From the IMG/VR virus record IMGVR_UViG_3300044713_000107, positions 16,847 through 80,846 of that record: a stretch of DNA of 64,000 nt; one strand, 5' to 3'. Below are positions 1,867-51,135 of this stretch, one piece after another. The notes under the pieces were generated by a model, which saw only the letters and a program-made list of their open reading frames with translations, searched no databases and was not told the origin of the DNA. The DNA comes from a virus. The number at the start of each line of letters is the position of its first letter. Positions within the stretch are counted from its first letter, which is position 1. The position numbers and the translations under genes are program-made.

Positions 1867-2306
1867 CGCCTGCCCCCGATGCTGAAGCTGGAGTTGTCGC
1901 CGATCTTTACGTTGGAGATCCGGATGCCGCCCGCCACCTTGAGGGCGACGATCGCGACTGCGGCGAGCGCCACGGCGATGCTGATCGCGACGACGGCGTG
2001 CTCGGCCATGCTCAACCCCTTGAAGAAGACCCACGATCCGCACTCGACGAGCGCCAGGCCGGCGCACCAGCAGAACCCCATGAAGCCGCATCCGTGCATG
2101 CGCGCGGGCAGCGGGTCGTAGGCGGGAAGCGGCTGGGGTTCGGGGTCGGGCTGGTAGTAGGCGATGCCGTTGGCGTCGTGGAGGACGCGGACACGGGCCG
2201 GGGCCGGGATGAGCGGCTGCGGCGTGTAGACGGCCGGGGTGCTGGTGGGCTGCGGGTCTTCGTACGCGGCCCAGTCGAAGACCTCCTCGCTGCGGTGGTG
2301 CTGCAT
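1863..2306 (-). CDS. Membrane protein of the transfer operon (Spd-like)
   Basis: A 147-residue protein whose ATG at 2306 overlaps the TGA of the FtsK-like gene (TGATG), so translation is probably coupled. The N-terminal half is Pro-rich and soluble. The C-terminal half has two hydrophobic stretches (about residues 55-75 and 82-105) followed by a short polar tail. No family is recognised. Small membrane proteins beside traB in Streptomyces plasmids (Spd proteins) take part in intramycelial plasmid spread, and position makes that role plausible here. Confidence 0.6.
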   Translation of the reverse strand: MQHHRSEEVFDWAAYEDPQPTSTPAVYTPQPLIPAPARVRVLHDANGIAYYQPDPEPQPLPAYDPLPARMHGCGFMGFCWCAGLALVECGSWVFFKGLSMAEHAVVAISIAVALAAVAIVALKVAGGIRISNVKIGDNSSFSIGGRR

Positions 2307-4453
2307 CACTGCTCCTGGATGTGGTCGGTGTGGATGTAGTTGGTGCGCTCCCCGCCCGGCTGCACGATCTTCGGCTCGGCCTTCAGCCACGTGGTGACGG
2401 TCTGCCGGGACGGCGCCTTCGCGTTCGGGAACACCGCGCGGAAGGTGTCGAGGATGCCCTCGGGGTTGATGCCTTCCGGGCCGGAGGAGCGGACGATGCC
2501 GTAGACCTGGGGCCAGCGGTCGTCGCTGCTGATGCCGGGGGTGGGCGAGTTCGGACTGGCTGCGGGCGCGGGGGTGTCGTCAGTGGGGGGCGTCCAGACG
2601 CCACCGGCGCCTTCGACGATGTCGCGGAACTGGCGCTCCAGGTCGGCGTCACGGCTGGCGTTCTCGTCCATCGTCTGGTGCAAGTCCCGCTTCGCCGCAT
2701 CCGCCTGGTCGATCACAGACTGCGCCTCGGGAGCCAGCGGCCCGGCCTCCGGCTTGCCCCAGTCGGCGGTGACGCTACGGCGGCGCTCGGGCCGATCCCC
2801 GACGATGCTCGTCAGGCCTTCCTCAACTGGGAACGGCGCGGAGCCGAGGCCGAAGAGGTGGTCCGTGTTCTCCCACCGCTTCTCGTAGGCGTCGCCTGCG
2901 GCTTTGCGGGACAGGTCGTCAAGGTCGGGGTGGCGGTCGCTGGTGGCCTTCACGATGTCGGCGATCTGGTTCGGCAGCATCCGGTACGCCTTGAACGGCC
3001 GCGCGGGCTCGTCCAGGATCTTCACGAAGCCGCACCCGGGGTAGGGGGCGTCGTCGGTGCTGATCCGGTCGGACCAGCCGAACAGGTACGACATCTCCCG
3101 CTCGTCGGACTTCATGCCGATCTTCAGGCCGGACTGGGCCAGCAACTGCGGCTCGCTGATCACATCCTGCGTGGCGCGCAGCGCGGTGATGAGCGCGTTC
3201 ACGGCAACGGCGCGGGCGAGCTCGACGACCTGGATGAGGGTGTCGCCGGTCTCCTTCAGGATCTCGTTCTTGCGGGCCTTCGGGGAGAAGATCTCCGCGA
3301 TCTCATCGCCGACGATCATGATGCCGGGGACTGCGGCGCACACCGGCAGCTTGTCGTCGTTCGCCTCCAACTCCAGGTGCTTGTAACCCGGCTTGCGGGC
3401 CTTCGCGATCCGCAGCGCGGCCTTCGCCATCGCCAACGCCTTCGCCGGAGTGTCCGCAACCCAGTCGATCGGCGGCTTACCCGGGCGCCCGGCCTTCTCC
3501 CACGCGTGCAGCCACGCCAGCGCGAGACCACCGCCGTTGAGGTCGATCACCCACGTGATGTTGTCGGTCATGCGGACCAGGCCCGCGACCTCCACGTTCG
3601 ACAGGTTCGTCTTCCCGGAGCCCTTACGTCCGGCCATGAGCGTCGACAGCTGCCGCAGTGACGGAGCAACGCGCGCACCGTCCCGGTACACGCCCATCGG
3701 CAGGCCGTCGTTCAAAGACAGCGGCGAGTAGTCCGCCGGGTAGGGCTCATCCCCGGCGAGCCGGTTCACGGTCGCCACGTTGATCAGCACAGCACCGCGG
3801 TGCGCACCCGGGCCGACCTCAACCCCGCAGCCCTCGGGCAGCTTCGCGTCGGCGGCGAGGCCGTCCTCGAACGCCTTGAAGTCACGCCACTTCGTGCCGT
3901 TGGAGCACTCCCCATCGAGGGTGAACCCGCCGCCGGACTCCCACTGCTCAACGCCGACGATCTGCACGGTCGCACTGGTGCACACCCGGGTCAGACGCTC
4001 GGTCCACTCGTCGGCGACCGCGCGCCGCTTGGCGTCCATGCTGGCCGCACGCTCAATCGCCTCGAAGCGGGCCCGTTCGTCGGCCTTCACCTCCTCGTGG
4101 TGGCGTGCGCCCTCGATCGCGGCACCGAGACCGATGCCGCCTGCGATCAGCGCGCCAATCGCCTTGCCCGTCCAGGGACCTTCAACGGTCGCCCACGAGC
4201 ACCAGCCGCCGACACCCAGCCACGTGGCGGCACGCATGATCAGGGCTGAGCGGGGGATCCGCTTCTTCCGTCCGGCATACATGCTGCCGACCAGTCCGGC
4301 GCCAGCAGCACCGGCGAGCCAGCCGGGGCCGAGGTGGGCAAGGTGGTGATGGGCGAGTTCGTAGTCGGCCCAGGCAAGCGTGAGGCTCGTCCAGGTGGCG
4401 TTGATGGGGCCGGCGACGGGGCCGTGTCCGGCGTCCCAATCGATGTGCACCAC
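2306..4453 (-). CDS. traB: FtsK/SpoIIIE (TraB-type) DNA translocase
   Basis: A 715-residue protein starting at GTG 4453 with AAAGGA about ten bases upstream. Two hydrophobic segments near residues 40-110 anchor it in the membrane. The motor has Walker A GRKGSGKTN (about 275-283), a WVIDLNGGG strand and a Walker B-like GIMIVGDE (about 377-384). The C-terminal about 200 residues are charged and Pro-rich and end in a possible winged-helix segment. In Streptomyces, one such hexameric ATPase (TraB) moves double-stranded plasmid DNA between cells. Its neighbours are Spd-like proteins and a separate gamma-like domain, which supports a transfer role over cell division. The symbol rests on architecture and context only. 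Confidence 0.8.
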   Translation of the reverse strand: MVHIDWDAGHGPVAGPINATWTSLTLAWADYELAHHHLAHLGPGWLAGAAGAGLVGSMYAGRKKRIPRSALIMRAATWLGVGGWCSWATVEGPWTGKAIGALIAGGIGLGAAIEGARHHEEVKADERARFEAIERAASMDAKRRAVADEWTERLTRVCTSATVQIVGVEQWESGGGFTLDGECSNGTKWRDFKAFEDGLAADAKLPEGCGVEVGPGAHRGAVLINVATVNRLAGDEPYPADYSPLSLNDGLPMGVYRDGARVAPSLRQLSTLMAGRKGSGKTNLSNVEVAGLVRMTDNITWVIDLNGGGLALAWLHAWEKAGRPGKPPIDWVADTPAKALAMAKAALRIAKARKPGYKHLELEANDDKLPVCAAVPGIMIVGDEIAEIFSPKARKNEILKETGDTLIQVVELARAVAVNALITALRATQDVISEPQLLAQSGLKIGMKSDEREMSYLFGWSDRISTDDAPYPGCGFVKILDEPARPFKAYRMLPNQIADIVKATSDRHPDLDDLSRKAAGDAYEKRWENTDHLFGLGSAPFPVEEGLTSIVGDRPERRRSVTADWGKPEAGPLAPEAQSVIDQADAAKRDLHQTMDENASRDADLERQFRDIVEGAGGVWTPPTDDTPAPAASPNSPTPGISSDDRWPQVYGIVRSSGPEGINPEGILDTFRAVFPNAKAPSRQTVTTWLKAEPKIVQPGGERTNYIHTDHIQEQ

Positions 4454-4492: not shown

Positions 4493-5905
4493 TCAGGACA
4501 GGTTGGTCGAGACGTCCCACATGCGCTCGCCAGCGATGCCCTTGCGCGGGTTCTCCAGGCGGGCGAGGTCGACCTGGTGGAGGCTCTTGAACGCGGGCTG
4601 CAGCTCGGCGGCGAGCTCGGAGGCCTTCAGCTGGAGACCGTGGATCTGCTTCATCAGGTCGACGATCTGCGGGTCGAGGGGGTGCTGGGCGTCGGCCTTG
4701 TCGACGGTGACCCTCATGGCCTCGGCAACGAGCTCCAGGCCCTCCTGGAGTCCGGCGAAGTCGGCGCCGACCTGGAGCATGCCGGTGGGTTCGTAGGCGG
4801 CTGCGGCGCGGGCCATTTCCATGGCGGGGCCGGTGAAGTGGTGGCCGGGCATGAGGGTTCCTCCGTTGGCGGTTCGGGTGATCTGGTTGGTGGGCTTGCG
4901 GACGACGGACGAGATGGTGGGTTCGGGCTTGGCCGGGTCGGTGGTCTTGTTCTTGCGGTTGGCGCGGTGCTGCTTCCATGCGGCCCAGGCTTTGGCGAGG
5001 CCCTTCTTGATGGACCAGTGGCGCAGCGTGCCCCACACGCCGGTGCGGATGGCGCGGAGGGCGTCGGCGGTGAACCCGCGGGACTTCCGTCCGGCTTTCT
5101 TCGCGGCAGCCCACGACTTGGTGCGCAGCGGCTTGCTGGTCTTCCACGCCTTCGAGGCACCGGCACCGGCGAGGCGACCGGCACCCGCGGCGGCGCGCCC
5201 GACGTGACCAGCCGTGGTCTTCGCGGCACGGCTGGCGGCGGACGGGCTCGTCTTCGAGGACTTCTGGGAGCGGTTCGAGTTGCTGCCGTTGGAGCCGGCG
5301 GAGCTGCCTCCATCGCGGCGGTTCCTGGTTCGCTGCGAACCAGGACCGCTAGCCGTGCTTCCGGTTCCGCTTCCGTGCGAACCAGCGCCCGCAGGCGAGC
5401 CGGAACCAGACCGCGAACCACCGCCGCTGGAACCTGCGGAACCCGTTGAGGTACGCCACGGCGAACCAGCCGCCGAGGTTCGCGAACCACCCGACCCGGA
5501 ACCACGCGAACCCCAGCTCGAACCCGTGCCGGAACCGCCCCACGAACCGCCGCGTGAACCACCGGAACCGAACCCGCCGGAACCGAGCGAGGACCGGCGC
5601 CGAACCTGACGGCGCCGGCGAACCACAGCCGCCACCGCCCCCAACGCAACCACCCCGCCAGCCGCGGCCAGCGCGGGCAGACCACCCGCCTCCGCCGCAG
5701 CCGTCAGGCCCATCGCGGTCGCGTTGCCGGTCGCAGCGAGCGCCGGCCCGGCGGGGATGCCGCGCTTCTTCGCGGGCTTCTCCTTGGCCTCCTTCGGCTC
5801 CGCAGCCTGCTGCCCGGCGGGTACAGCCCACCCGGCGGTGAGAGTCGGCGCGGGGATCGTGATGGTGGCCGGCTCCGGGGCGGGCGCGACCTGAGTGTCC
5901 GCCAC
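4493..5905 (-). CDS. Gly/Ser-rich membrane protein of the transfer operon (SpdB-like)
   Basis: A 470-residue protein starting at GTG 5905 behind AAGGGAGG. Order of parts: a Pro/Ala-rich leader, a hydrophobic segment (about residues 68-95), a very basic RRRRQVRRR patch, a long Gly/Ser/Thr repeat tract (about 105-200), a basic Lys/Arg region, then a C-terminal helical domain of about 140 residues beginning MPGHHFTGPAMEMARAAAAY. It resembles the SpdB2 type of Streptomyces conjugation proteins, which bind DNA and assist spread. Gly codons preceding Ser in the tract are mostly GGT, giving many GGTTC pentamers; see the repeat entry. Confidence 0.65.
   Translation of the reverse strand: MADTQVAPAPEPATITIPAPTLTAGWAVPAGQQAAEPKEAKEKPAKKRGIPAGPALAATGNATAMGLTAAAEAGGLPALAAAGGVVALGAVAAVVRRRRQVRRRSSLGSGGFGSGGSRGGSWGGSGTGSSWGSRGSGSGGSRTSAAGSPWRTSTGSAGSSGGGSRSGSGSPAGAGSHGSGTGSTASGPGSQRTRNRRDGGSSAGSNGSNSNRSQKSSKTSPSAASRAAKTTAGHVGRAAAGAGRLAGAGASKAWKTSKPLRTKSWAAAKKAGRKSRGFTADALRAIRTGVWGTLRHWSIKKGLAKAWAAWKQHRANRKNKTTDPAKPEPTISSVVRKPTNQITRTANGGTLMPGHHFTGPAMEMARAAAAYEPTGMLQVGADFAGLQEGLELVAEAMRVTVDKADAQHPLDPQIVDLMKQIHGLQLKASELAAELQPAFKSLHQVDLARLENPRKGIAGERMWDVSTNLS
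5280..5605. repeat. Dense GGTTC/GAACC pentamer cluster inside the SpdB-like gene
   Basis: About twenty GAACC or GGTTC pentamers fall in roughly 320 bases. They encode Gly-Ser steps on the minus strand, but GGT is used before TC-type Ser codons although GGC would be expected at this GC content. The same pentamers form the palindromic repeats in the neighbouring DUF2637 gene, so a DNA-level signal such as a motor recognition site is possible. Confidence 0.6.
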
Positions 5906-10671: not shown

Positions 10672-11664
10672 TCAACCTCCAACTATCAGGGACAGGCCCG
10701 CGGGGCGCTCCCGCAAGGCTTCGATGCGACCGACGTAGTCGGCCACGGACTTGGCCAGCTGGCGCAGGTCTTCCATCTGGCGCTCGTCGGCGCCGGCCGC
10801 GACCTGTTCCGGGGTGAACATCCCGATCAGGCCGAAGGAACGGGCGAGCTCCTTCTGGAAGTTGTGCTGCCACTGCTTGCGACGGATCTCCTCGGCGGCG
10901 CCGGAGGATTCGAGGTAGTCGCGGACAGGGGCGACCAGGGCGTCGGCTTCGGCCTGCTTGACCTTCTTGAAGGCCGGGTCGACCTTGCCGGTGCGGTCCA
11001 TCACGGCCTGGGCCTCGCGAGCGGCTTCGCGCACCGGCTCGGGTGCCTCCAGGTCGCGGGCGGCCTCGACGACATGCCGGGCCTTCTCCAGGGTCCGGCC
11101 GGACATGCCAGTTGCCTTGGCGATCTGATCCCGAGTCTTCAGCGACGGCTTCGGTGCTTCGGCGGCAACGACGCTCGGTGGAAAATTTCCACCGAGCGTC
11201 GACTTGGCTTCTGGCTCGACGGCGACGAGTACGGGTGCTTCTGGATCGGCGGCTAGGCGCGCCTTTGCGGCTTGGGGGCCGCCGGCGCGCTGGCCCGCCA
11301 GGCGGCGTTCGGCTGCGCGCTGCTCCTCAATGCCGCGGATCCGCTCGGCGTGCTCAACCGCCTCGGTGGGCGTGAATGCCTCGCGCTCGGTGTTCTCTTC
11401 GCCCTCGGCGAGCAGGGCCTCCAGTTCGTCGGCGAGAGACCCGGCGACGTGGGCGTCGATCGTGTCGCGGCCGAGTAGCCGGTGGGCTTCGATGCGCCGA
11501 CCGCCAGCGACGAGGGCGTAGCCGCCGCCGTCGGGCCGGACGACGATCGGCTGGAGAAGCCCTCGCTCTTTGATGGATTTTGCAAGGGAATCGATGTTGC
11601 GCATCTCCTGGCGCGCCCTGTCGCCAATGGTGATGCGGTCGAGGGATATGGCGTTGACGATCAA
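10672..11664 (-). CDS. parB: ParB-family partition protein
   Basis: A 330-residue protein starting at TTG 11664 with GGAGG eight bases upstream. The N-terminal ParB/Srx domain has LAKSIKERGLLQPIVVRP and YALVAGGRRIEAHRLLG, the canonical ParB motif. A middle HTH follows (TRDQIAKATGMSGRTLEKARHVV), then a long helical C-terminus. No parA is found in the window; the downstream 175-residue gene may serve instead. A 33-bp palindrome inside this gene (11169-11201) is a candidate parS. It acts in segregation of the episome or in regulation. Confidence 0.85.
   Translation of the reverse strand: MIVNAISLDRITIGDRARQEMRNIDSLAKSIKERGLLQPIVVRPDGGGYALVAGGRRIEAHRLLGRDTIDAHVAGSLADELEALLAEGEENTEREAFTPTEAVEHAERIRGIEEQRAAERRLAGQRAGGPQAAKARLAADPEAPVLVAVEPEAKSTLGGNFPPSVVAAEAPKPSLKTRDQIAKATGMSGRTLEKARHVVEAARDLEAPEPVREAAREAQAVMDRTGKVDPAFKKVKQAEADALVAPVRDYLESSGAAEEIRRKQWQHNFQKELARSFGLIGMFTPEQVAAGADERQMEDLRQLAKSVADYVGRIEALRERPAGLSLIVGG
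11169..11201. repeat. 33-bp near-perfect palindrome inside parB, candidate parS
   Basis: Sixteen-base arms (11169-11184 and 11186-11201) are perfectly complementary around one central A. The core GTGGAAA-A-TTTCCAC is strikingly A/T rich for this gene. It encodes a flexible STLGGNFPPS segment between the ParB domain and the HTH. ParB proteins bind 16-bp palindromes of similar design, though the sequence is not the chromosomal parS. Confidence 0.65.
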
Positions 11665-11891
11665 GAGCGGACCTCCGCAGACGTCTGACCGATACTCACT
11701 ATGAGTGAACGACTGGGGGATGCGCAAAGAGCCCGAGGCTGACGTGCTATGGAGTCCCGAATGGTGTGACTTTCCGGGCGCGCTGACGGCCCTTCAAGTC
11801 ACACGCAGTTGCGACGCTCGCAAAAGCGCCCGCGCTCCGAAGAGAGCAGGCGCTTCGTTGTGCTCAGTCCCGCGGTGGGCGATGAAACAGG
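11665..11891. other. Upstream region of parB with dyads
   Basis: No gene is seen. The region holds a small dyad ACTCA-CTA-TGAGT (11694-11706), just upstream of the parB ribosome-binding site, and a wider one, GTGTGACTT (11764-11772) with AAGTCACAC (11796-11804). Either could be an operator. The left end of the region also carries the terminator of the next gene. Confidence 0.5.
11824..11855 (-). terminator. Terminator of the 11892-12311 gene
   Basis: AAGCGCC at 11824-11830 pairs with GGCGCTT at 11849-11855, with further partial pairing inside. On the minus strand the stem is followed by TTTTGC. Confidence 0.6.
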
Positions 11892-14651: not shown

Positions 14652-14680
14652 GGGCCGCCCCAGGGAAAGTGGGGCGGCCC
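14652..14680 (+). terminator. 11-bp hairpin upstream of the initiator gene
   Basis: GGGCCGCCCCA at 14652-14662 pairs with TGGGGCGGCCC at 14670-14680. With no T-run, and 43 bases before the next start, it may attenuate rather than stop transcription. Confidence 0.55.
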
Positions 14681-14722
14681 ACACCAACCGTACCGCCACG
14701 CACAGGAGTCGGAGTAGGACAC

Positions 14723-15604
14723 GTGGGCGACAGCGACGCCGGACAGCCATCCGGCAAGAAGCGCGCAGAGACGCGCTACTGCCGTGTCCCGCAGTGGCTC
14801 TACAGCGCTGGCGTCTCACTCCAGGCCATCGCCGCATACGGCTGGCTGCACGGCCGCTACGGATTCCTGCCCGTGATCAACCCGTCGTACGCGACGCTCG
14901 CCGAGGAGCTCCACTGCAGCCGCGGCAGTGTCATCACCTACCTGAAAGAGCTGGTCCGGGTCGGTGCGATCCGCATCAACGTGGGCGGCCCGAAGGGTCG
15001 AACGATCAACACCTACGAGATCGCGTTCGACGCTCCGTTCCCCGTAAGTGGTCAGTCGGCTGACCACTTGAAGGGTGCCGAGAGCTCCCAAGTGGTCAGC
15101 GGGCTGACCACTACTGGTCAGCCCGCTGACCAGAGCCCCGGTCAAAGTGGTCAGCGGGCTGTACCCGAAGAAGAAGTAGTTAAGAACGGGAAGACTCTCT
15201 CTGCTCGCATGCCCCGTCAGCCCCAGCCGTCTCCCGCTCCAGTCGAGAGAGAGACGGTTGCTTCGCAGGACAAGCTGACGACCGCGCAGCGGATCGTTCG
15301 CACTGCCGCCGTCGTAGCCGAAGCAGACGAAGACACGTTCATCGCCTGGGTGCGCGCCAAGCACCCGCCAGCCGGCCCGCAGTTCTGGCGCAAGGTCTCC
15401 GCCCAGGGCGATCTGCCCGAGCTCGTCGAGGCCTGGCGCGCCGACCAGCCTTCCCGGCCCACGCTGTCGCTCATTCCCGACTGGTGCGGCCACTGCAACC
15501 GCGGCCAGCAGCCCGCCAGCATCGCCGAACGCATCAACGAGACAACCGACGGCCGCATCGAACAGTGCCGGGCCTGCCACCCGGCCCGACGTGCCGCCGC
15601 CTGA
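14723..15604 (+). CDS. Winged-helix replication-initiator-like protein
   Basis: A 293-residue protein starting at GTG 14723, with GGAGTAGG eight bases upstream. Residues about 15-110 form a wHTH of the HTH_36 type (LQAIAAYGWLHGRYG, PSYATLAEELHCSRGSVITYLKELV), then a low-complexity linker, then a helical domain (about 190-265) and a C-terminal CGHCNR...CRAC zinc pair. The linker DNA carries 3.5 phased copies of a GGTCAG dyad (15046-15161) and then an A-rich stretch. With dnaB directly downstream, this resembles lambda O: an initiator whose gene contains its own origin. The function is inferred from architecture and context. Confidence 0.7.
   Translation: MGDSDAGQPSGKKRAETRYCRVPQWLYSAGVSLQAIAAYGWLHGRYGFLPVINPSYATLAEELHCSRGSVITYLKELVRVGAIRINVGGPKGRTINTYEIAFDAPFPVSGQSADHLKGAESSQVVSGLTTTGQPADQSPGQSGQRAVPEEEVVKNGKTLSARMPRQPQPSPAPVERETVASQDKLTTAQRIVRTAAVVAEADEDTFIAWVRAKHPPAGPQFWRKVSAQGDLPELVEAWRADQPSRPTLSLIPDWCGHCNRGQQPASIAERINETTDGRIEQCRACHPARRAAA
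15046..15161. repeat. Iteron cluster inside the initiator gene, candidate origin
   Basis: A dyad of AAGTGGTCAG, four bases, and CTGACCACTT is perfect at 15046-15069, near perfect at 15090-15113, a shortened perfect form (CTGGTCAG/CTGACCAG) at 15114-15133, and a half copy starts at 15145. Their centres are 44, 22 and 33 bases apart, all multiples of 11, so they share one helical face. An AT-richer run (GAAGAAGAAGTAGTTAAGAA) follows at about 15168-15187 and could be the unwinding element. Confidence 0.7.
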
Positions 15605-15614
15605 AAGGACCCCC

Positions 15615-16973
15615 GTGCAGACCGCACCCGACCCGTTCGACGACCTCGTAGACGAGCCCGAGCCCGATCCGATCCTCGACGCCGAGCAGGCTGTCCTCGG
15701 GTCGATGATGCTCGACCGCGACACCATCCCCGACGTCAACGCGATCCTCGCTCCGCGCGACCACTCCCGTCCGGCGCACACCACGATCCACGAGGCCGTC
15801 AATGCCCTGTTCCAGCGCGGCGAGCCGTGTGACCCGATCACCGTCACCCGGGAACTCATGGCCCGTGGCGATCTCGCCCGCGTCGGCGGAGCGTCCTACG
15901 TTCACGGCTGCGTCGAGGCCGTTCCGACGGTCGCGAACGCCGAGTACTACGCCGAGATGATCCACGAGCGCGGCGTGTTCCGGCGCCTGGAGGCCGCGGG
16001 GATCGGCATCGTGCAGCTCGGGCAGCAGCGCCTCGGGAACGCCGTCGAGGCGGTCGACAAGGCGCAGGCCGAGCTGTTCACCATCGCCGAGGAGCGGGCG
16101 AGCGAAGACGTCGTCCCGGTCGGGCAGACGCTCACAATCACGCTGGACGCGATGGAGGAGCGGCAGAACAGCGACCAGGCGAAGATGCCCGGCGTGCCGA
16201 CGGGCTTCACCGATCTGGACACGCTGACTGGTGGCCTCCGCGGCGGCCAGATGATCGTAGTTGCCGCACGGCCAGCCATGGGCAAGTCCACCGTGGCGCT
16301 CGACTTCGCCCGCTCCGCTGCGATCAAGCACGGCATGACGACGGCGTTCTTCTCGCTGGAGATGGGACGTCAGGAGATCGAGGAGCGTCTCATCTCGGCG
16401 CAGTCCCGGGTTGCCCTGCACCACATCCGCCAGGGGACACTCACCGACGACGACTGGACCAGGATCGGCCGCCACACTGGCGAGATCCTGGAAGCGCCGC
16501 TGCTGCTTGACACCTCGACGAACCTGACCGCTATGGACATCCGGGCGAAGTCCCGCCGGTTGGCGCAGAAGCACGACCTGAAGCTCGTGATCGTGGACTA
16601 CCTGCAGCTGATGCAGTCCGGGGGAGCGAAGTCCGAGACGCGGCAGCTCGAAGTCACTGAGATCAGCCGGAACTTGAAGCTGTTGGCCAAGGAGCTCGAC
16701 GTTCCCGTGGTCGCCCTGTCGCAGCTGAATCGTGGTCCGGAGCAGCGCGCCGACAAGCGGCCGATGGTCTCCGACCTCCGTGAGTCGGGCTCCATCGAGC
16801 AGGACGCGGACATGGTCATCCTGTTGCACCGCGAGGACGCCTACGAGAAGGAATCCCCCCGCGCCGGCGAGGCCGACCTCATCGTGGCCAAGCACCGCGG
16901 CGGCCCCACGGCGACGATCACAGTCGCCGCCGCGCTCCACTATTCGCAGTTCGTCGACATGGCGCAGAGCTGA
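15615..16973 (+). CDS. dnaB: Replicative DNA helicase DnaB
   Basis: A 452-residue protein starting at GTG 15615 with AAAGGA upstream. The N-terminal primase-binding domain (AEQAVLGSMMLDRDTI) is followed by the RecA-like motor with Walker A ARPAMGKST (about 218-226), SLEMGRQE, Walker B LVIVDYLQLM and the Arg-finger region near the C-terminus (SDLRESGSIEQDADMV). The length is normal for DnaB. It unwinds the replication fork and is presumably loaded by the upstream initiator-like protein. No intein is present. Confidence 0.95.
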   Translation: MQTAPDPFDDLVDEPEPDPILDAEQAVLGSMMLDRDTIPDVNAILAPRDHSRPAHTTIHEAVNALFQRGEPCDPITVTRELMARGDLARVGGASYVHGCVEAVPTVANAEYYAEMIHERGVFRRLEAAGIGIVQLGQQRLGNAVEAVDKAQAELFTIAEERASEDVVPVGQTLTITLDAMEERQNSDQAKMPGVPTGFTDLDTLTGGLRGGQMIVVAARPAMGKSTVALDFARSAAIKHGMTTAFFSLEMGRQEIEERLISAQSRVALHHIRQGTLTDDDWTRIGRHTGEILEAPLLLDTSTNLTAMDIRAKSRRLAQKHDLKLVIVDYLQLMQSGGAKSETRQLEVTEISRNLKLLAKELDVPVVALSQLNRGPEQRADKRPMVSDLRESGSIEQDADMVILLHREDAYEKESPRAGEADLIVAKHRGGPTATITVAAALHYSQFVDMAQS

Positions 16974-17060: not shown

Positions 17061-18194
17061 ATGAGCGATCTGACGCTGACCGACCTGTTCCCGCCCGAGG
17101 CGCTTGCCGCCGCGATCGACGCTGGGCACGTGACCCGCAAGCAGCACCCGACACTGCCCCTGTCGATCTACACCTACACGCGGGAGTGCCAGTACGGGCA
17201 CATCTGGACCCCCGTCACGATGCAGTGCCGGGGCCTGATCGCTGACGACGCGTCGGGGCGCATCGTGGCCCTGCCGTTCCCGAAGATCTTCGTGACGGGC
17301 ATGCACGGCGTCCACGACTTCGCCCCCGCGCTGCCCGCCGAGCCGTTCGAGATCTTCGAGAAGGCCGACGGCAGCCTCATCATCCTGTTCCACCACGGCG
17401 GGCGCTGGCACGCCGCCTCAAAGGGCTCGTTCATCAGCGAGCAGGCCACCTGGGCGCAGCAGTTGCTCGACGCCTCCGACCTGACCCGCCTTGACCCGCA
17501 GTTCACCTACCTCGCCGAGGCCATCTACCCCGGCAACCGAATCGTCGTTGACTACGGCCAGCGCGAGGCCCTGATGCTCCTCGCCGCGTACCGGCCAGCG
17601 GACGGCACCGAGGAGCTCCTGTCGACGGTCGCGGCGCACTGGGAGCCGATAGGCCCGGTCGTGCGCTCCTGGGGTCTGTCGTCGGACATCGCGGTGCTGG
17701 AGAAGCTCGCTGCGGAGTCGACCACCGTCGACGGCCAGGAGGTCGGCGGCGTGGACGAGGAGGGCTACGTCATCCGCTTCCAGTCCGGGCTGCGCGCCAA
17801 GGTGAAGCTTGCCGCCTACCTCAAGCTGCACAAGCTGTTCACTGGCACGAACGAGCGCACCATCTGGGAAGTCCTCGCGTCCGGCCAGGACCCGGCCGTC
17901 CTCTTCGACCAGGTCCCCGACGAGTTCGCCGACTGGGCCCGCCAGATCGCGGACGGGCTGCACGAGCAGCACCGGCAGCTCCTCGCCGAGGCCACCGCGG
18001 ACTATGCGGAGGTACTCGCCCAGCTCCCTGCCGGTTGCGACCGCAAGTCGTTCGCGCTCCTGGCCAAGGAGACCCGGCACCGCTCCGCGCTCTTCCTGCT
18101 CGTGGACGGCCGCGTCGACGCGGCGAGCGCCTGGGCGTGGAAGCAGCTCAAGCCCCGCGGCGACAAGCCGTTCAAGACCGACGAGGAAGGCTGA
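17061..18194 (+). CDS. T4 Rnl1-type RNA ligase
   Basis: A 377-residue protein starting at ATG 17061. The nucleotidyltransferase core has motif I EKADGSL with Lys101 (T4 Rnl1 uses Lys99), a TYLAEAIYPGNRIVVDYG motif III region, EGYVIRF motif IV and KVK motif V. A helical C-terminal domain follows, and the length matches Rnl1. Rnl1 seals tRNAs cut in the anticodon loop by host anticodon nucleases, using ends healed by Pnkp, which is encoded immediately downstream. The pair forms an RNA-repair cassette. Confidence 0.9.
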   Translation: MSDLTLTDLFPPEALAAAIDAGHVTRKQHPTLPLSIYTYTRECQYGHIWTPVTMQCRGLIADDASGRIVALPFPKIFVTGMHGVHDFAPALPAEPFEIFEKADGSLIILFHHGGRWHAASKGSFISEQATWAQQLLDASDLTRLDPQFTYLAEAIYPGNRIVVDYGQREALMLLAAYRPADGTEELLSTVAAHWEPIGPVVRSWGLSSDIAVLEKLAAESTTVDGQEVGGVDEEGYVIRFQSGLRAKVKLAAYLKLHKLFTGTNERTIWEVLASGQDPAVLFDQVPDEFADWARQIADGLHEQHRQLLAEATADYAEVLAQLPAGCDRKSFALLAKETRHRSALFLLVDGRVDAASAWAWKQLKPRGDKPFKTDEEG

Positions 18195-18196
18195 CC

Positions 18197-19114
18197 ATGC
18201 CCACCATCCACTTCACTACCGGCCTGCCGGCCAGCGGCAAGACCACGTACGCCATGGAGCTGTTGCGCCAGTCGAACGGCTCGATGCGCAGGGTCAACCT
18301 CGACGACATCCGCGCGATGCTCGACCAGGCCGGCGACACCAAGGTCTGGACGCACCGGCACGAGGCGACCGCGCAGGCCGTCCAGGAGGCCGCTGTGCGT
18401 GCGGCGGTGAAGGACGGCTTCGACGTGGTCGTCGACAACACCCATCTGACGCCGCGGATGCCGGGCCGGCTCAAGCAGGTGCTCGGCGAGTTCGACGAGC
18501 TGACGTTCGTGGTCCACGACTTCACGGACGTCCCGCTTGCCGAGTGCCTGATCCGTGACGCGAAGCGGGAGAAGCCGGTGGGGGAGGAGGCGATCCGACG
18601 GCTCCACTCCCGGCACGTCTCGGCGACGAAGGGCGGATGGCGGCTCACCCCAGAGTGGCTCGCCGACCGAGTCCCCGTGCACCCGTACGAGCCAGATGCG
18701 TCGCTGCCTGCGGCGGTCATGTGCGACATCGACGGCACCCTCGCACTCCACACCGACCGCGGCCCTTACGACTTCGACCGCTGCATGAGCGACGGGCTGA
18801 ACCTGCCGGTGTTCGAGGCCCTGACGATGTACCGGAACTCTGGGCACGCGATCGTGCTGCTGTCCGGGCGGCAGGAGGAGTATCGGCGGCACACGGAGCA
18901 GTGGCTTGCCGAGTTCAAGGTGCCGTACGACGAGCTGTGGATGCGCGGAGTCGGCGATCGGCGCCGGGACGACATCGTCAAGGCCGAGCTGTTCGACGCG
19001 CACGTCCGGGACCGGTTCAACGTCCGGGTGAGCCTCGACGACCGTGACCGTGTCGTGCGCCTGTGGCGCCGGCTGGGCTTGCCGACGTGGCAGGTCAACT
19101 ACGGCGACTTCTGA
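18197..19114 (+). CDS. pnkp: Polynucleotide 5'-kinase/3'-phosphatase (T4 Pnkp type)
   Basis: A 305-residue protein starting at ATG 18197, two bases after the ligase stop. The kinase domain has the P-loop GLPASGKTT (about 9-17) and VNLDDIR. The HAD phosphatase domain has DIDGT (177-181) as nucleophile, LLSGRQEEYR and a C-terminal SLDDRDRV acidic motif. The order and length match T4 Pnkp. It heals 2',3'-cyclic phosphate and 5'-OH ends so the adjacent Rnl1-like ligase can seal them, restoring tRNAs cleaved by host defence. Confidence 0.93.
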   Translation: MPTIHFTTGLPASGKTTYAMELLRQSNGSMRRVNLDDIRAMLDQAGDTKVWTHRHEATAQAVQEAAVRAAVKDGFDVVVDNTHLTPRMPGRLKQVLGEFDELTFVVHDFTDVPLAECLIRDAKREKPVGEEAIRRLHSRHVSATKGGWRLTPEWLADRVPVHPYEPDASLPAAVMCDIDGTLALHTDRGPYDFDRCMSDGLNLPVFEALTMYRNSGHAIVLLSGRQEEYRRHTEQWLAEFKVPYDELWMRGVGDRRRDDIVKAELFDAHVRDRFNVRVSLDDRDRVVRLWRRLGLPTWQVNYGDF

Positions 19115-22034: not shown

Positions 22035-22619
22035 GTGAAGAAGATCCCCACCGTGTTCCTGCGTGACCCTGATGACCGTGCCCACGTCCTGCCTGAGGTC
22101 AACCCCGACTGTCAGTGGGTTCTCGACGGCGAAGGGCGCGCGACCCGCAAGTACGACGGCACCTGCACCTTGTTGGACGAGCTCGGCAAGTGGTGGGCCC
22201 GGCGCGAGGTCAAGCCTGGGAAGCCGCTGCCCGCCGACTACTGGCTCATCGAGGGCGACGAGGTCACCGGGAAGCTGTTCGGCTGGGAGCCGATCGGCCA
22301 GTCCGCGTTCGCCAGGTTCCACGCCGAAGCCCTCGACAACCACCGCGGCACCAACAACGGGATCTACACGCCGCGCCCCGGCACCTACGAGCTGATCGGG
22401 CCGAAGGTCAACGGGAACCCGGAGCGGGAGCAGCGGCACTGGCTGATCGAGCACGCCAAGGCGGAGCGCATCCGCCAGCTCGACGAGCTGACCTTCGACG
22501 GCATCCGCGAGGTGGTGCTCGCCCTGGCCGAGGCCGACGGCTGCGAGGGCATCGTCTGGCACCACCCCGACGGCCGCATGGCGAAGATCAAGGCACGCGA
22601 CTTCAAGGCCGGTGCGTGA
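22035..22619 (+). CDS. Compact nucleotidyl-transferring ligase (RNA ligase-like)
   Basis: A 194-residue protein starting at GTG 22035 with GAAGGAGA upstream. Motif I is RKYDGTC with Lys39; motif III-like GTYELIGPKVNG; motif IV CEGIVWHH (from about Glu171); motif V KIK (184-186). It is a bare adenylyltransferase domain with no N- or C-terminal extension, closest in style to small RNA ligases annotated in actinophages. With the Rnl1/Pnkp pair it gives the element two distinct ligases. RNA rather than DNA substrate is inferred. Confidence 0.75.
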   Translation: MKKIPTVFLRDPDDRAHVLPEVNPDCQWVLDGEGRATRKYDGTCTLLDELGKWWARREVKPGKPLPADYWLIEGDEVTGKLFGWEPIGQSAFARFHAEALDNHRGTNNGIYTPRPGTYELIGPKVNGNPEREQRHWLIEHAKAERIRQLDELTFDGIREVVLALAEADGCEGIVWHHPDGRMAKIKARDFKAGA

Positions 22620-35358: not shown

Positions 35359-35976
35359 TCAGCTGGCTTCCGGTCGCGCGGCGTAGGCCTCTTTCCGCGA
35401 CGGGTGTGTGTCCTGCAGGACCCGATGCCGGGTGGGCGTGCGGCACGGGTTGCCTGCGTAGGCCCGGCAGTAGGGGCAGTCGACGGCGATGTCCGGGTGT
35501 GCGAGCTTCATCGCACCCCAGCCGGTCAGGGATTCAGCGAGCTGCAACCGGATGTGGTCCGGCATGTACTGGCGCTTCTCGGGCTTGATGACGTTGCGTT
35601 CGATGCCTGCGGTGAGTTCTTTGACGTCGTAGACCGGGGCTCGGCCTGTGACGACGGCGCTGCGCTCGGCGTGCAGCTGGCGTCGGTAGTCCTTCTCGTC
35701 GTCGGGGTCGGCACGCGGTGGTGTCTCGACGTGGCGTTCGAGGCGGCGCCTCGTCTCGGCTTTCCACTTCGCGGCTATGTCCGCGGGCAGGACGGGGAAC
35801 GGCGAGGTGGCGTAGTGCTGGCCGACGGCGTCGAGGGCGAACTGCAGCGGGACGTCCTTGAGGACGGTGGCCCACATGGCGACTTGGCCGCGTTGCTCGG
35901 CGGGGTCTTCACGGAGGACGCGGGGGTCGGCGTAGCTGATCTGCTTGAGGAGTTCGGGGACGTCTTGGAGGTTCAT
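35359..35976 (-). CDS. Replication-module protein with zinc-finger C-terminus
   Basis: A 205-residue protein from ATG 35976, overlapping the initiator-like gene. The N-terminal about 75 residues (PELLKQISYADPRVLREDPAEQRGQVAMWATVLKDVP) are helical in the manner of helicase-loader-type proteins. DCPYCRAYAGNPCRTPTRHRV at the C-terminus is a zinc finger seen in actinophage replication proteins. A helicase-loader role is inferred from its pairing with the upstream gene. Confidence 0.65.
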   Translation of the reverse strand: MNLQDVPELLKQISYADPRVLREDPAEQRGQVAMWATVLKDVPLQFALDAVGQHYATSPFPVLPADIAAKWKAETRRRLERHVETPPRADPDDEKDYRRQLHAERSAVVTGRAPVYDVKELTAGIERNVIKPEKRQYMPDHIRLQLAESLTGWGAMKLAHPDIAVDCPYCRAYAGNPCRTPTRHRVLQDTHPSRKEAYAARPEAS

Positions 35977-36848
35977 GCGGTTTCCCCGCTTTCGATGGCT
36001 TGGGCGGCGATTTCGGCGGCGATGGCGTCGTAGCCGGAGCGGGCGGCGTTGCGGGCGGCGGCCTTGGGGTCGGCGGCGTGGATGGGCACGACTGCGGCGC
36101 CGGGCTGTGGGGGCGCGGGCCTGCGGGTGCGGTGCCAGGTGTCGTAGAAGAGCCGGCTGCTGACGGCGGGGCCTTTGAGGGTCTGCATGACGCTGATGGC
36201 GAGGCTGACCATGAGCGGGACGCCGAGGCGTTTGATGTCGTTGTGGAGCCGGAACGCGTCGTCGCCTTTGAAGCTCCAGGGCACGTTGATGCCTGCGGCG
36301 CTGATGGCGTCGGCGAGTTCGATGCACCAGATGGGGAAGTCGTCGTCGGGGTCGCGGCGGGCGATCTCGCGGGAGGTCGCGGGCGCGCGCGTTGATGATT
36401 GGTTCCCTGACGGTTCCTCTGATGGTTCTAGTGATGATTCGGGTGAACTTTGGACGGGGTTTCGTGTCGCAAAGTTCGGGGTTTCGTGCTCAAAGTTCGG
36501 GGTTTCTGTCGCAGAGTTCGGGGTTTCTCGCTCCGTTACCCCGTCAGATGTGCGGGGTTTCTGGGCGGATACCCCGTCGATCTGACGGGGTTTCGGGATG
36601 ATCTGATACCGGTTCCGGCGGTGTCGGCCGCCGCCGAGACCCACCGCCAGTTCGCCGATTTCGATCAGGTTGGCGATGCCCTTCTGGACCGCGCGCGGGG
36701 ACAACAGCGTCCGGTTGGCGATGTCCTCGATGGACGGCCACGCGAACCCGTTCTCGTCGGCCCGGTCCGCGATGGCGAGCATGACGAGTCGGGCTCCGTT
36801 ACGGGACTGGGAGTTCTCCCAGACCCAGTTCGTGACCTTGATGCTCAC
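35973..36848 (-). CDS. Second winged-helix initiator-like protein
   Basis: A 291-residue protein starting at GTG 36848. The N-terminal HTH_36 wHTH (SRNGARLVMLAIADRADENGFAWPSIEDIANRTLLSPRAVQKGIANLIEIGEL) is followed by a low-complexity linker repeating ETPNFxx and a helical C-terminal domain (about 180-240) like that of helicase loaders. The linker DNA carries six phased GGGGTTTC repeats. Architecture parallels the 14723 gene: wHTH, repeat-laden linker, helical domain. It is probably an alternative replication initiator for this element. Confidence 0.7.
   Translation of the reverse strand: MSIKVTNWVWENSQSRNGARLVMLAIADRADENGFAWPSIEDIANRTLLSPRAVQKGIANLIEIGELAVGLGGGRHRRNRYQIIPKPRQIDGVSAQKPRTSDGVTERETPNSATETPNFEHETPNFATRNPVQSSPESSLEPSEEPSGNQSSTRAPATSREIARRDPDDDFPIWCIELADAISAAGINVPWSFKGDDAFRLHNDIKRLGVPLMVSLAISVMQTLKGPAVSSRLFYDTWHRTRRPAPPQPGAAVVPIHAADPKAAARNAARSGYDAIAAEIAAQAIESGETA
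36456..36594. repeat. Second intragenic iteron array
   Basis: GGGGTTTC starts at 36456, 36478, 36499, 36520, 36554 and 36587: spacings 22, 21, 21, 34, 33, close to whole helical turns. Three copies share AAAGTTCGGGGTTTC or one change. ACCCCGTCAGAT at 36538-36549 is also inverted at 36580-36591. Together they look like an origin embedded in the linker codons. Confidence 0.65.
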
Positions 36849-47859: not shown

Positions 47860-48063
47860 CTATGCGGCGGCGGGGCCGGCGTGCTGCTCGATGAGCAGGG
47901 CGTCTTCGGCGCGGCGCTGGATGATGCGGGCTTCGATCGCTTCAACGGTCTTGTCCGGGTGGCCCGGATACCAGGCGGCCTCGGCGGCTTCGCGGGCGGG
48001 GAGGGATTCGCGGGCTTCGATGGCGCGGATGTAGGCGCGGGCGAAGTCGTCTATGGCGCTCAT
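47860..48063 (-). CDS. Small helical protein after the Cro-like gene
   Basis: A 67-residue protein from ATG 48063, ATGA-coupled to the Cro-like gene. It is helical and charged. Function is unknown. Confidence 0.5.
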   Translation of the reverse strand: MSAIDDFARAYIRAIEARESLPAREAAEAAWYPGHPDKTVEAIEARIIQRRAEDALLIEQHAGPAAA

Positions 48064-48308
48064 GCGGCGACCGGCTCGGGCTCGGCGTTGTCGTCCTCGT
48101 TGAGGATGAGTCCGTCGACGGTGAGGCCGTAGGGACGGCCAAGAGCTCGGAAAGTCGCGACCTTGGGTTCGTTGGTGGCGTCGGGTCGGGCGAGTCGGGA
48201 GATGGTGGCCGGGGAGACGCCGGTTCGGGCGGAGATCATGGTGTCGGTGGTGTCTCCGTGAGCCTTTGCTGCTGCCCGGAGTCGCTCGACGTTGAGGCGG
48301 GTGGTCAT
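48060..48308 (-). CDS. XRE-family Cro-like regulator
   Basis: An 82-residue protein from ATG 48308 with AGGAGG upstream. LNVERLRAAAKAHGDTTDTMISARTGVSPATISRLARPDATNEPKVATFRALGRPYGL is a complete HTH, with a short acidic tail and no oligomerisation domain. It is the first gene of the leftward early operon and divergent from the repressor gene, the position of Cro. Confidence 0.8.
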   Translation of the reverse strand: MTTRLNVERLRAAAKAHGDTTDTMISARTGVSPATISRLARPDATNEPKVATFRALGRPYGLTVDGLILNEDDNAEPEPVAA

Positions 48309-48322
48309 GTTCACCTCCTGTT

Positions 48323-48401
48323 TTACGTCTGCGGAAGAGCTTCCGTTGGCGAAAACAGTAGGCGGATGGCGACGCGTGCGCAAGCTCTTACGCAGACGTA
48401 A
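48323..48401. promoter_or_regulatory. Immunity operators: inverted pair of 20-bp sites
   Basis: TTACGTCTGCGGAAGAGCTT (48323-48342) and AAGCTCTTACGCAGACGTAA (48382-48401) are reverse complements with one mismatch. A third match to the CGCAGACG core lies at 48512-48519, overlapping the repressor promoter. Three operators between Cro-like and repressor genes mirror a lambdoid switch. Confidence 0.8.
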
Positions 48402-48507
48402 GAGTAAAGCTATGGCAAACCGCTTGGCGTGAACATGAGCCCAAATGTGGCGTCTGAGTGAAGGTGTGGCTTACCCTCTGACCACTGCCCTTTCGTGCAT
48501 GAAAGAG

Positions 48508-48545
48508 TTGCCGCAGACGCAACAAAGCCCGCTAGCCTGCCAACA
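48508..48545 (+). promoter_or_regulatory. Promoter of a probably leaderless repressor mRNA
   Basis: TTGCCG (48508-48513) and TAGCCT (48533-48538), with a 19-base spacer, place the transcript start at the ATG (48545). No ribosome-binding site precedes the gene. The -35 overlaps the third operator core. Confidence 0.6.
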
Positions 48546-48994
48546 TGGGAAGCGATGTCGACATGACGCCATCAGAGGAGTTCGCTGCCTGGCTCGAACC
48601 CGCCATGCGCCGCGCGGGCTACGACCTCGACCGGCTCAGCGGCGGACGCACAGCCTTCGCCGAAGCAGTCGGCGTCTCAGGAGCCACCGTCACACGCTGG
48701 CTCTCCGGCAAGTCCATGCCAGACCCCGACAAGTTCGAATCGATCGCGACGGCCCTCAAGGTCAACCCGATCGACATGCTGCACGGAATTGGCGTTCTTT
48801 CAGCCAAACCGGCTGCAACAAGCCGTGAAACAGCAGTACGATCGCGTCCCATCACCCCCTCAGAAGCCGCCGACGCGCTAGGCATTGACGACCCATACGA
48901 CCGTCAGATGTTCACTGCGATGGTCAAACAACTCGCCAAACGCCCCAAGCTCACCGCCGCGCCCGACCAGGGGAGTTCTGCAGCCGAGGGATAG
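48545..48994 (+). CDS. XRE-family repressor (immunity candidate)
   Basis: A 149-residue protein from ATG 48545, probably leaderless. The HTH is about residues 35-75 (GGRTAFAEAVGVSGATVTRWLSGKSMPDPDKFESIATALKV). The C-terminal part (PITPSEAADALGIDDPYDRQMFTAMVKQL) is a short helical segment, not a LexA-type peptidase, so induction may depend on the BRO-N antirepressor instead. It is followed by a membrane protein and the integrase, a lysogeny module. Confidence 0.8.
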   Translation: MGSDVDMTPSEEFAAWLEPAMRRAGYDLDRLSGGRTAFAEAVGVSGATVTRWLSGKSMPDPDKFESIATALKVNPIDMLHGIGVLSAKPAATSRETAVRSRPITPSEAADALGIDDPYDRQMFTAMVKQLAKRPKLTAAPDQGSSAAEG

Positions 48995-49006
48995 CGGGGG
49001 CACGCC

Positions 49007-49534
49007 GTGAAAACAGCCTGGAGACTGGCCTACATCACCACCATCACGGCCGCCCTCGCCGGGCTCGGAGCCATCGCCTACTGCGTCGCCCACAACCGCC
49101 CCACCCTCGCCATCGGCAGCCTCGCGGCCTTCCTCGTCGCCGTCATCGCCTTCCGCATGGTCTGGGAGATCGACGTCCTCCACCGCCGCCGCGTGCGCCT
49201 CGCCGCCCAGGAGCGAGGCTTCGAAGCCGACCGCGGAGTGTTCGAGCAGGACAAGGAACGCGCGATGCGTGACCTCTCGGACCGGGAACGGGCCATGCGC
49301 GACCAGGCCACGATCGAGCGCAAGAACCTGCGCCGCGAAATCGAGGCTGAGCGCGACCGGCTGGAGACCGACCTCGCCAACAAGAAGGCCCTCATCGAGC
49401 GCAAGGCGGTCCAACTCGCCTTCCAGATGGCCGAGAACGGCATAGCAGACGAGCAACGACCCGCCGATGTGATCGTGCTGCCCGTCGGCCAGAACGCACC
49501 CACCATCATGGGAACCGGCACCACGCACCCATAG
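49007..49534 (+). CDS. Two-helix membrane protein with coiled coil
   Basis: A 175-residue protein starting at GTG 49007. Two hydrophobic helices (about residues 5-28 and 33-53) form a hairpin. A charged coiled coil follows (about 55-135; ERDRLETDLANKKALIERKA), then a Pro-rich tail. It is cotranscribed with the repressor, so it is expressed in lysogens; superinfection exclusion is a reasonable guess. No family is recognised. Confidence 0.6.
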   Translation: MKTAWRLAYITTITAALAGLGAIAYCVAHNRPTLAIGSLAAFLVAVIAFRMVWEIDVLHRRRVRLAAQERGFEADRGVFEQDKERAMRDLSDRERAMRDQATIERKNLRREIEAERDRLETDLANKKALIERKAVQLAFQMAENGIADEQRPADVIVLPVGQNAPTIMGTGTTHP

Positions 49535-49554
49535 CCCGCACCCTCGGGGGGACC

Positions 49555-51135
49555 ATGCTGACCCAGACTCGCCAGAACCTGCAGCCCGTCGAGCTGATCC
49601 CCGCCCTCGGATACATCCGCGTCAGCGCATGGTTCGAAGAGAAGATCAGCGACGAGATCCAGAAGGCCTCCATCGAAGACGGCGCCCGCCGCCGAGGACG
49701 CCGCATCGTCGCCTGGATCACCGACCTCGACGCCACCGGCCGCAACTTCAAACGCAAGATCATGGAAGCGATCGGCGCAGTCGAAACCGGCGAAGCCGAA
49801 GGCGCCCGCGAGATCTGGGTGTGGAAATACTCCCGCTTCGGCCGCAACCGCCACGGCGTCGCCGTCAACCTCGCCCGCGTCGAACAAGCCGGCGGCCACC
49901 TCATCTCCTCCACCGAGGAAGTCGATGCCACCACCGCCACAGGCCGCTTCACCCGCGGCATGCTGTTCGAACTCGCCGCGTTCGAGAGTGATCGCATCGG
50001 CGAGCAGTGGCGCGAAACCCACGAATACCGGCGCGTCCACGGCCTGCCCGCTACCGGCGGCGAACGCTTCGGCTACCTGTGGCACCGCCGCGAGATGGAC
50101 AACGGCATCCTCACCGTCCCCGAGAACTACGAGCCGAACCCGGACTCGGCAGAAGCCGTCAAACAGATCTACGAGGACTACGCCCACCACGACGCGTCGT
50201 TCCGCGACCTGGCCGACACCCTCAACGACGCCCGGATCCTCAACCCCGGAGCCATCACCGCCGACAGATGGAAGCGGCAGACACTGCGCTACTACCTCGA
50301 CTCCGGCTTCGCCGCAGGCCTGCTCCATGTCCACCGCGGTGACAAGAACTGCCCGGCAAGTCAACGGTGCCCGCACGTCGTGGAGCACTACGGCTACATC
50401 CCAGGCGCGCAACCGCCCATCATCTCGGACGACCTATGGGCGGCATACCGGGAACGCCGAGGCCAGCGCAAGGAGCTCCCGCCCCGGTCCCGTATCCCCC
50501 GCTACCCGTTCTCTGGTCTTGCTAAGTGCGGGCTGTGCGGGGGTGCCGCAGTTGCCGCGAACGGTTCAGGTGGCCGGCGCGGCTACATGTACCGCTGCTC
50601 GGTCAAGTACACCGAGCCCGAGCTCGGCCGGTGCCGTGGGGCGGTTGTGCCGTCGAAGTGGGTTGAGGCTGAGGTGCTGCGGTGGCTGGGGAAGGCTGCG
50701 GTCGAGATCGACCGGAGGCTGCAGGGGACGGTGCTGACGCCGAAGAAGGCCGAGCCGCGCGTTGACTCGCGGAAGCGGGAGCGGCTGGCCGCCGAGGTGA
50801 CGAAGATTCAGCAGGGCCTCGACCGGGCGTCGACGGCTTACGCGATGGGTGACATGCCGCGTGACAGCTACCTGCGGGTCCGTGATGAGCTCACGGCGAA
50901 GCGGGAGCAACTCGACTCGCAGCTCGGCGGCTTGCGGGCCGAGGAACGCGAGGAGTCGAAGACTACGTGGGAAATGCGGGGTGCCGTGGTCCGCAGTCTC
51001 CTGGAGGAGTGGGACACGCTTTCGGTGTCCGGCAAGCGGGATTTGCTGTCGAGGGCTGTGACGGAGATCAGGGTGTTTCCGACCGGGATGGAGCCCCGTG
51101 TGGTGTGCGTTCCCCGGGAAGGCTTTGTGTTTTAG
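49555..51135 (+). CDS. int: Large serine integrase
   Basis: A 526-residue protein from ATG 49555. The catalytic resolvase domain begins LGYIRVS with Ser24 and includes VWKYSRFGRNR and ELAAFESDRIGEQW. The recombinase domain (about 160-330) has PPIISDDLWAAY. The zinc ribbon is CGLCGGAAV...YRCSVK...RCRG, then a coiled coil (VTKIQQGLDRASTAYA). All parts of a phiC31-type integrase are present. It would integrate attP into attB unaided. The candidate attP overlaps its 3' end. Confidence 0.95.
   Translation: MLTQTRQNLQPVELIPALGYIRVSAWFEEKISDEIQKASIEDGARRRGRRIVAWITDLDATGRNFKRKIMEAIGAVETGEAEGAREIWVWKYSRFGRNRHGVAVNLARVEQAGGHLISSTEEVDATTATGRFTRGMLFELAAFESDRIGEQWRETHEYRRVHGLPATGGERFGYLWHRREMDNGILTVPENYEPNPDSAEAVKQIYEDYAHHDASFRDLADTLNDARILNPGAITADRWKRQTLRYYLDSGFAAGLLHVHRGDKNCPASQRCPHVVEHYGYIPGAQPPIISDDLWAAYRERRGQRKELPPRSRIPRYPFSGLAKCGLCGGAAVAANGSGGRRGYMYRCSVKYTEPELGRCRGAVVPSKWVEAEVLRWLGKAAVEIDRRLQGTVLTPKKAEPRVDSRKRERLAAEVTKIQQGLDRASTAYAMGDMPRDSYLRVRDELTAKREQLDSQLGGLRAEEREESKTTWEMRGAVVRSLLEEWDTLSVSGKRDLLSRAVTEIRVFPTGMEPRVVCVPREGFVF

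Follow-up and report, generated by a model that had tools for sequence, protein, structure and literature searches.

Initiator B and the neighbouring loader gene

The window considered here (the whole 64-kb stretch of viral DNA that was analysed, to which coordinates refer unless another sequence is named) carries on its minus strand an initiator gene, called initiator B, and an overlapping loader gene:

35973..36848, minus strand: initiator B, a 291-aa winged-helix (HTH_36) replication initiation protein
35359..35976, minus strand: SPP1 G39P-family helicase loader carrying a zinc finger (Phage_zn_bind_8) at its C-terminus; the gene overlaps the initiator B stop codon

Initiator B matched Pfam HTH_36 (7.4e-11) and two PHROG families, phrog_1032, replication initiation (1.3e-23), and phrog_391, replication initiation O-like (7.9e-21), and by profile match it belongs to these PHROG groups of HTH_36 initiators. 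The AlphaFold model agrees with the three-part plan that a sequence-only reading had proposed for the protein: a winged helix (residues 1-85, mean pLDDT about 90), a disordered linker (93-165, for the most part with pLDDT under 50) containing most of the repeat array described below, and a helical C-terminus from residue 173, with a C-terminal domain at 173-242. Residues 85-135 are encoded by the array and are mostly disordered in the model. A fold search returned generic winged helices only; the top Foldseek match of the winged helix was the plasmid Rep structure 4pql (E 3.3e-3), and the top matches included many MarR-type regulators.

The loader was identified from three comparisons. A profile of 14 neighbours occupying the loader slot, compared with the PDB at E values up to 10, had SPP1 G39P (1no1) as its sole match (3.3e-5); 1no1 was also ranked first, weakly (E about 1), by Foldseek with the loader model; and the loader matched the PHROG helicase loader family (1e-5). 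A loader or helicase gene is the neighbour to be expected of an HTH_36 initiator, and a G39P-family loader adjoins initiator B, the arrangement of the SPP1 module, in which a G39P-type loader is encoded with the initiator. The operon of initiator B and the loader has no DnaB gene, the only one found in the record being at 15591-16973. In relatives, the slot after the initiator is often occupied by a DnaC-like loader or a DnaB helicase, and a DnaB gene lies near the initiator by coordinates in five relative phages (G402, G417, G424, G425 and G431).

An iteron array inside the initiator B gene

The linker-coding part of the gene contains six copies of GGGGTTTC, at plus-strand positions 36456, 36478, 36499, 36520, 36554 and 36587. 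The spacings of 22, 21, 21, 34 and 33 are those given by the sequence-only reading, and neither strand of the 64-kb window has any other copy (this count takes in the window alone, which starts at contig base 16847 of an incomplete genome). On the gene strand, the cores read GAAACCCCG and start at offsets 254, 287, 321, 342, 363 and 385, in codon phases 2, 2, 0, 0, 0 and 1:

36571..36591, minus strand: palindromic iteron 1, ACCCCGTC-AGATC-GACGGGGT, with its core GAAACCCCG at 36586-36594
36538..36558, minus strand: palindromic iteron 2, ACCCCG-CACATCTGA-CGGGGT, with its core at 36553-36561
36519..36527, minus strand: iteron 3, core GAAACCCCG, then AACTCTG
36498..36506, minus strand: iteron 4, core GAAACCCCG, then AACTTTG
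36477..36485, minus strand: iteron 5, core GAAACCCCG, then AACTTTG
36455..36463, minus strand: iteron 6, core GAAACCCCG in a different codon phase (RNPV), then an inverted CAAAGTTC

The units are therefore read in three frames (KPR, ETPN and RNPV), with ETPN encoded by three of the six, all in one phase. Iterons 1 and 2, each a palindrome of the form ACCCCG...CGGGGT, are joined by a 12-bp inverted repeat (36580-36591 and 36538-36549). This repeat, ACCCCGTCAGAT / ATCTGACGGGGT, had been noted before and is real; it lies within a 29-nt imperfect palindrome (strand folding z = -5.7). The suggestion that all spacings approach integral helical turns holds for 21, 21 and 22 but not for 33 and 34, which miss an integral turn by 1.5-2.5 bp if a turn is taken as 10.5 bp.

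Constraint on the array at the DNA level

Initiator B was recoded synonymously in 20,000 rounds, keeping the protein and using the phage's own codon usage. The recoded genes had a mean of 0.37 copies of the repeat and a maximum of 4; six copies were reached in none of the 20,000, and no octamer of any kind reached six copies. The use of three codon phases likewise indicates DNA-level sites, since a repeat serving the protein would stay in one phase.

Synonymous codon identity among 12 orthologues was 0.56-0.63 over residues 21-84, rose to 0.94 over residues 107-135, and was 0.85 directly after them and about 0.65 further on; over the last 90 residues the value is distorted by the presence of two different C-terminal domains among the 12. 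Close relatives keep the array register of 33, 34, 21, 21 and 22, and L079 and L085 have one additional 33-bp unit (11 aa, in frame). With the register unchanged, units 1-2 of L132 have CCCGG and units 3-6 CCCTG, while in L135 units 2-6 have CAGCG and unit 1 CCGTG; the array units have thus switched nearly in concert in these two close relatives. Compared with the window, their peptides change from ETPN to ETLN or ETAH/ETAS and, in the other phase, from NPV to NSV. As the units change while the peptide is altered in differing phases, it is the DNA unit, and not the peptide, that changes as a set. Direct repeats conserved as DNA within the initiator gene, a feature of the lambda O / SPP1 gene 38 plan of intragenic origins, are consequently present here.

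A frameshifted initiator copy in Streptomyces sp. SW4 (L011 6001-6420) still keeps five of the six cores; it is either a pseudogene or a sequencing error.

The AT-rich stretch and a second repeated element

A second feature of such origins, an AT-rich region beside the repeats, was found by base composition directly adjoining the iteron array:

36392..36451, no strand assigned: AT-rich stretch, candidate DNA unwinding element, 45% GC against 68.5% overall
36408..36427, minus strand: two AACCRTCA direct repeats, copies at 36420-36427 and 36408-36415, 12 bp apart

The stretch is among the lowest 0.09% of 60-bp windows in GC and is the fifth-lowest separate GC spot of the 64-kb window, not the lowest. 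Both AACCRTCA repeats of the window fall within it. Across 68 non-redundant initiator genes, this octamer occurred 101 times where 14 were expected (at most 22 in any of 200 shuffles), and pairs 9-13 bp apart numbered 45 against 0.7 expected (maximum 3). The pair spacings were 10, 11 and 12 bp with a single exception of 13, and in 21 of the 68 genes the element was found in more than one codon phase. In the distant phage G404 the iterons are wholly different (GGACGTGGACGT), yet two AACCRTCA copies follow them 23 bp apart; in the L125 initiator gene, copies lie at offsets 547 and 570. Five named phages that were checked had at most one copy each. AACCRTCA directly after the iterons is thus a second element common to many phage initiators, whatever their iteron, and is a candidate unwinding element or helicase-loading site. 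The sequence-only reading had not noted AACCRTCA, and the open-access literature searched contained nothing on this element or on the GAAACCCCG iteron.

Distribution and variation in the initiator family

A search by DNA alone, for a pattern of two cores spaced 21 bp, gave 35 viral loci; those with at least three copies were mostly HTH_36 initiator genes, a few being in unrelated frames (L063, L072 and L075). A protein-only search gave 80 initiator loci, and 65 non-redundant ones were tested against synonymous shuffles within the gene. A linker octamer was in excess (p<=0.01) in 43 of the 65, the linkers of the remaining 22 having no significant repeat, and the top octamer was present in at least three copies and at least two phases in 57. 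Intragenic repeats are therefore general in the family, with a repeat sequence that varies. The GAAACCCCG iteron is not universal, the initiators of five named phages having different or weaker repeats; compared with named phages, the array DNA gave only chance-level matches to Mycobacterium phages (E 0.6). The relatives are for the most part uncultured contigs, the closest with a name being Streptomyces genomes, which makes an actinobacterial host likely.

We also compared the recognition region of the winged helix with the iteron type. All 29 genes with an AACCCCG-type array share R52 and Q55 in the recognition helix, and wing position 75 is R or K in each of them. The seven ACCCCCG genes mostly have P75, and other classes often have R55. 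The recognition region is changed in both relatives with switched units (Q55R in L132, P51R in L135). As 12 of the 29 genes entered the sample partly through the DNA pattern, and as only four independent contrasts could be placed on the tree (none contrary, too few for significance), the link between residues and iteron is a lead and no proof.

A second initiator module, probably of the same phage

The plus strand of the window carries another initiator gene with its own repeats:

14669..15604, plus strand: initiator A (the 14.7 kb gene), a diverged HTH_36 protein, PHROG replication initiation 1.5e-9
15046..15167, plus strand: initiator A array, four AGTGGTCAGCnnGCTGACCACT-type palindromes (AGTGGTCAGC..GCTGACCACT) at spacings of 44, 22 and 33
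15591..16973, plus strand: DnaB-type replicative helicase beside initiator A, Pfam DnaB_C 1.4e-98, PHROG DnaB-like 7.9e-107

Its GGTCAGC palindromes stand in several codon phases, and in the shuffle test 6 repeats were observed against a mean of 1.8 and a maximum of 6 (5000 shuffles), a weaker result than for initiator B. The two initiators match overlapping PHROG initiator families; a direct BLASTP comparison gave no similarity (E = 0.25), and initiator A had no homologue among named phages or plasmids. A homologue with 42% identity was found in G404; its GGTCAGC repeats occupy two codon phases and a DnaB gene accompanies it (module at L003 5917-8251). On the minus strand this distant phage has another HTH_36 initiator, together with a same-family loader.

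The anatomy therefore bears out the proposal that one phage has two initiator genes whose repeat sets are unrelated, a dual layout shared with G404. Judged from its genes and repeats, the initiator A module (14669-16973) is probably a second origin, and two origins in one phage are plausible. The further proposal, that one origin would serve lysogenic maintenance and the other lytic growth, is not supported, in view of the following region:

48060..51135, no strand assigned: lysogeny switch, with an HTH gene (48383-48060, minus strand), a repressor (48545-48994, plus strand) and a serine integrase (49555-51135, plus strand)

Given the serine integrase (match 1.7e-85), the lysogen need not replicate on its own. 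The minus-strand operon that reaches initiator B begins at this switch and runs away from the repressor and integrase, and, judged by the example of temperate phages, is an apparent early lytic operon.

The contig has terminase, portal and head genes at its start and tail genes at its end, all on one strand, and its GC content is even. Structural genes split in this way between the ends fit a single phage genome cut within the structural region, and both modules likely belong to one phage. The fusion of two elements by assembly was considered and is not favoured, on the grounds of the single strand of the end genes, the even GC and the occurrence of both modules in G404.

Other genes of the window include an FtsK/SpoIIIE-like protein (2306-4453, minus strand, PHROG 3.5e-89) and a ParB-N protein (10672-11727, minus strand), plasmid-like features that would be compatible with a phage-plasmid past. 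A tRNA-His (gtg) was predicted by ARAGORN at 5585-5659 (minus strand), within a same-strand gene predicted to encode 470 aa. Downstream of initiator A lies an RNA-repair set (17061-19114 and 22035-22619, plus strand) in which a T4-type RNA ligase, a polynucleotide kinase/phosphatase (HAD_PNKP) and another RNA-ligase-like protein are encoded close together.

Interpretation of the initiator B locus

The claim that initiator B is an initiator gene with its own intragenic, DNA-level repeats is strongly supported by the PHROG families, the recoding, the synonymous conservation, the unit switching and the G39P-family loader. On this sequence evidence, the gene very probably encodes a replication starter and carries the start sites within its own coding sequence. 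We consider it highly likely that the locus is an intragenic theta origin that follows the lambda O / SPP1 gene 38 plan, initiator B carrying its own origin. The N-terminal winged helix would bind the GAAACCCCG iterons, that is two palindromic sites separated by 33-34 bp, three direct ones spaced by 21 bp and a last one at 22 bp. Because the array encodes a disordered linker, its DNA can be constrained at little cost to the protein. Binding would strain the adjoining AT-rich AACCRTCA region, and the C-terminal domain, together with the G39P-type loader from the overlapping gene, would bring in the replicative helicase, probably that of the host and possibly the phage DnaB, leading to the start of theta replication. 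We infer these four steps (binding by the gene's own product, unwinding, helicase recruitment and origin activity) from what is seen at the locus, namely the initiator and loader families, the DNA-level constraint on the array, its nearly concerted switching, the AT-rich stretch and the adjoining loader.

Winged-helix proteins are often repressors, and the MarR-type regulators among the top fold matches would suit an array acting as an operator, through which initiator B or another regulator represses or roadblocks its own gene while replication starts elsewhere. We regard this as unlikely: the array lies about 255-395 bp into the gene, a sigma-70 consensus scan found no promoter-like site nearby, and the AT-rich stretch, the loader gene and the PHROG family all indicate replication. 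Autoregulation could, for its part, coexist with an origin.

The array could also be mainly a recombination joint for swapping C-terminal domains and loaders between phages. Close relatives with the same N-terminus and array indeed fall into two sets (L002, L008, L009, L010, L055, L057 and L071 versus L074, L079, L085, L132 and L135) that differ in the C-terminal domain and in the loader genes, which points to domain swapping directly after the array. As the array's main role, however, this is very improbable, for it leaves unexplained the nearly concerted unit changes, the kept spacing and the same design in distant phages, and the swapping may itself follow from a conserved origin.

Scarcely credible is a by-product of a repeated ETPNFxx linker peptide, which the three ETPN units in one phase and the disordered linker might suggest; a protein-level repeat was rejected on the synonymous identity of 0.94 and the unit switching, with one DNA core being read in three phases and kept by divergent phages with other peptides. 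Such a repeat would predict homologues that lose the DNA repeats and keep the peptide, and L132 and L135 show the reverse: the peptide follows the iteron and the register stays.

Comparison with known replication systems

In SPP1, the initiator gp38 has oriL inside gene 38, and acts with the loader gp39 (G39P) and the DnaB-type helicase gp40 (PMC6316719, PMC3485210). By layout and loader, the intragenic origin proposed for initiator B resembles this system in its direct repeats and AT-rich region inside the initiator gene, in the adjoining G39P-family loader gene and in the number of origins, two in SPP1 and two modules here. It differs in that gp38 alone binds oriL and oriR, whereas the two arrays here are unrelated and each lies in an initiator gene of its own, and in that the SPP1 helicase is in the same operon, whereas DnaB here adjoins initiator A.

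The lambda origin lies in the middle of O, and extra iterons add residues in Stx phages (PMC7466680). Compared by layout, both have iterons with a flanking AT-rich region midway along the initiator gene, in keeping with the O-like PHROG label, and iteron copy number changes as an in-frame insertion, of 13 aa in Stx phages and 11 aa in L079 and L085. The iteron sequence is different, and so is the loader, which is lambda P in lambda and G39P-like or DnaC-like here.

Phage P1 has separate plasmid and lytic replicons, and its lysogens are plasmids. Its oriL has been proposed to lie within repL, where synonymous substitutions in an AT-rich part strongly reduce function (PMC9948254). The likeness would lie in an intragenic lytic origin and two replicons per phage; unlike P1, with its plasmid lysogens, the phage studied here encodes a serine integrase. 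Initiator B would work along the lines of lambda, SPP1 and P1; what sets it apart is the iteron, the second element and the presence of another module of different specificity.

The plasmid Rep initiators 4pql, 4pt7 and 5kbj, which we take to be of the RepA_N type, share the winged-helix fold (4pql), and a Rep-DNA complex exists. With Z about 9 and rmsd 4, the match is no better than to unrelated winged helices and is a fold lead only; initiator B had no sequence match to plasmid Rep initiators.

Biological significance

We are evenly divided over a wider proposal, in which HTH_36 phage initiators would be widespread two-part intragenic origins, made of a swappable array that the winged helix reads through a residue code (recognition-helix position 55, wing position 75) and, after it, of a constant AACCRTCA at every helical turn, recognised by a shared factor, some temperate phages having two modules of independent specificity. 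At the locus itself, a suspected origin becomes testable by synonymous recoding, and the lambda/SPP1 plan is extended to many uncultured phages. The window, L132 and L135 offer natural pairs for the study of how initiator and origin specificity change together. Finally, the two modules of this phage prompt one to ask why a virus would keep more than a single start, and make it a good test case for initiator-origin pairing in viruses.
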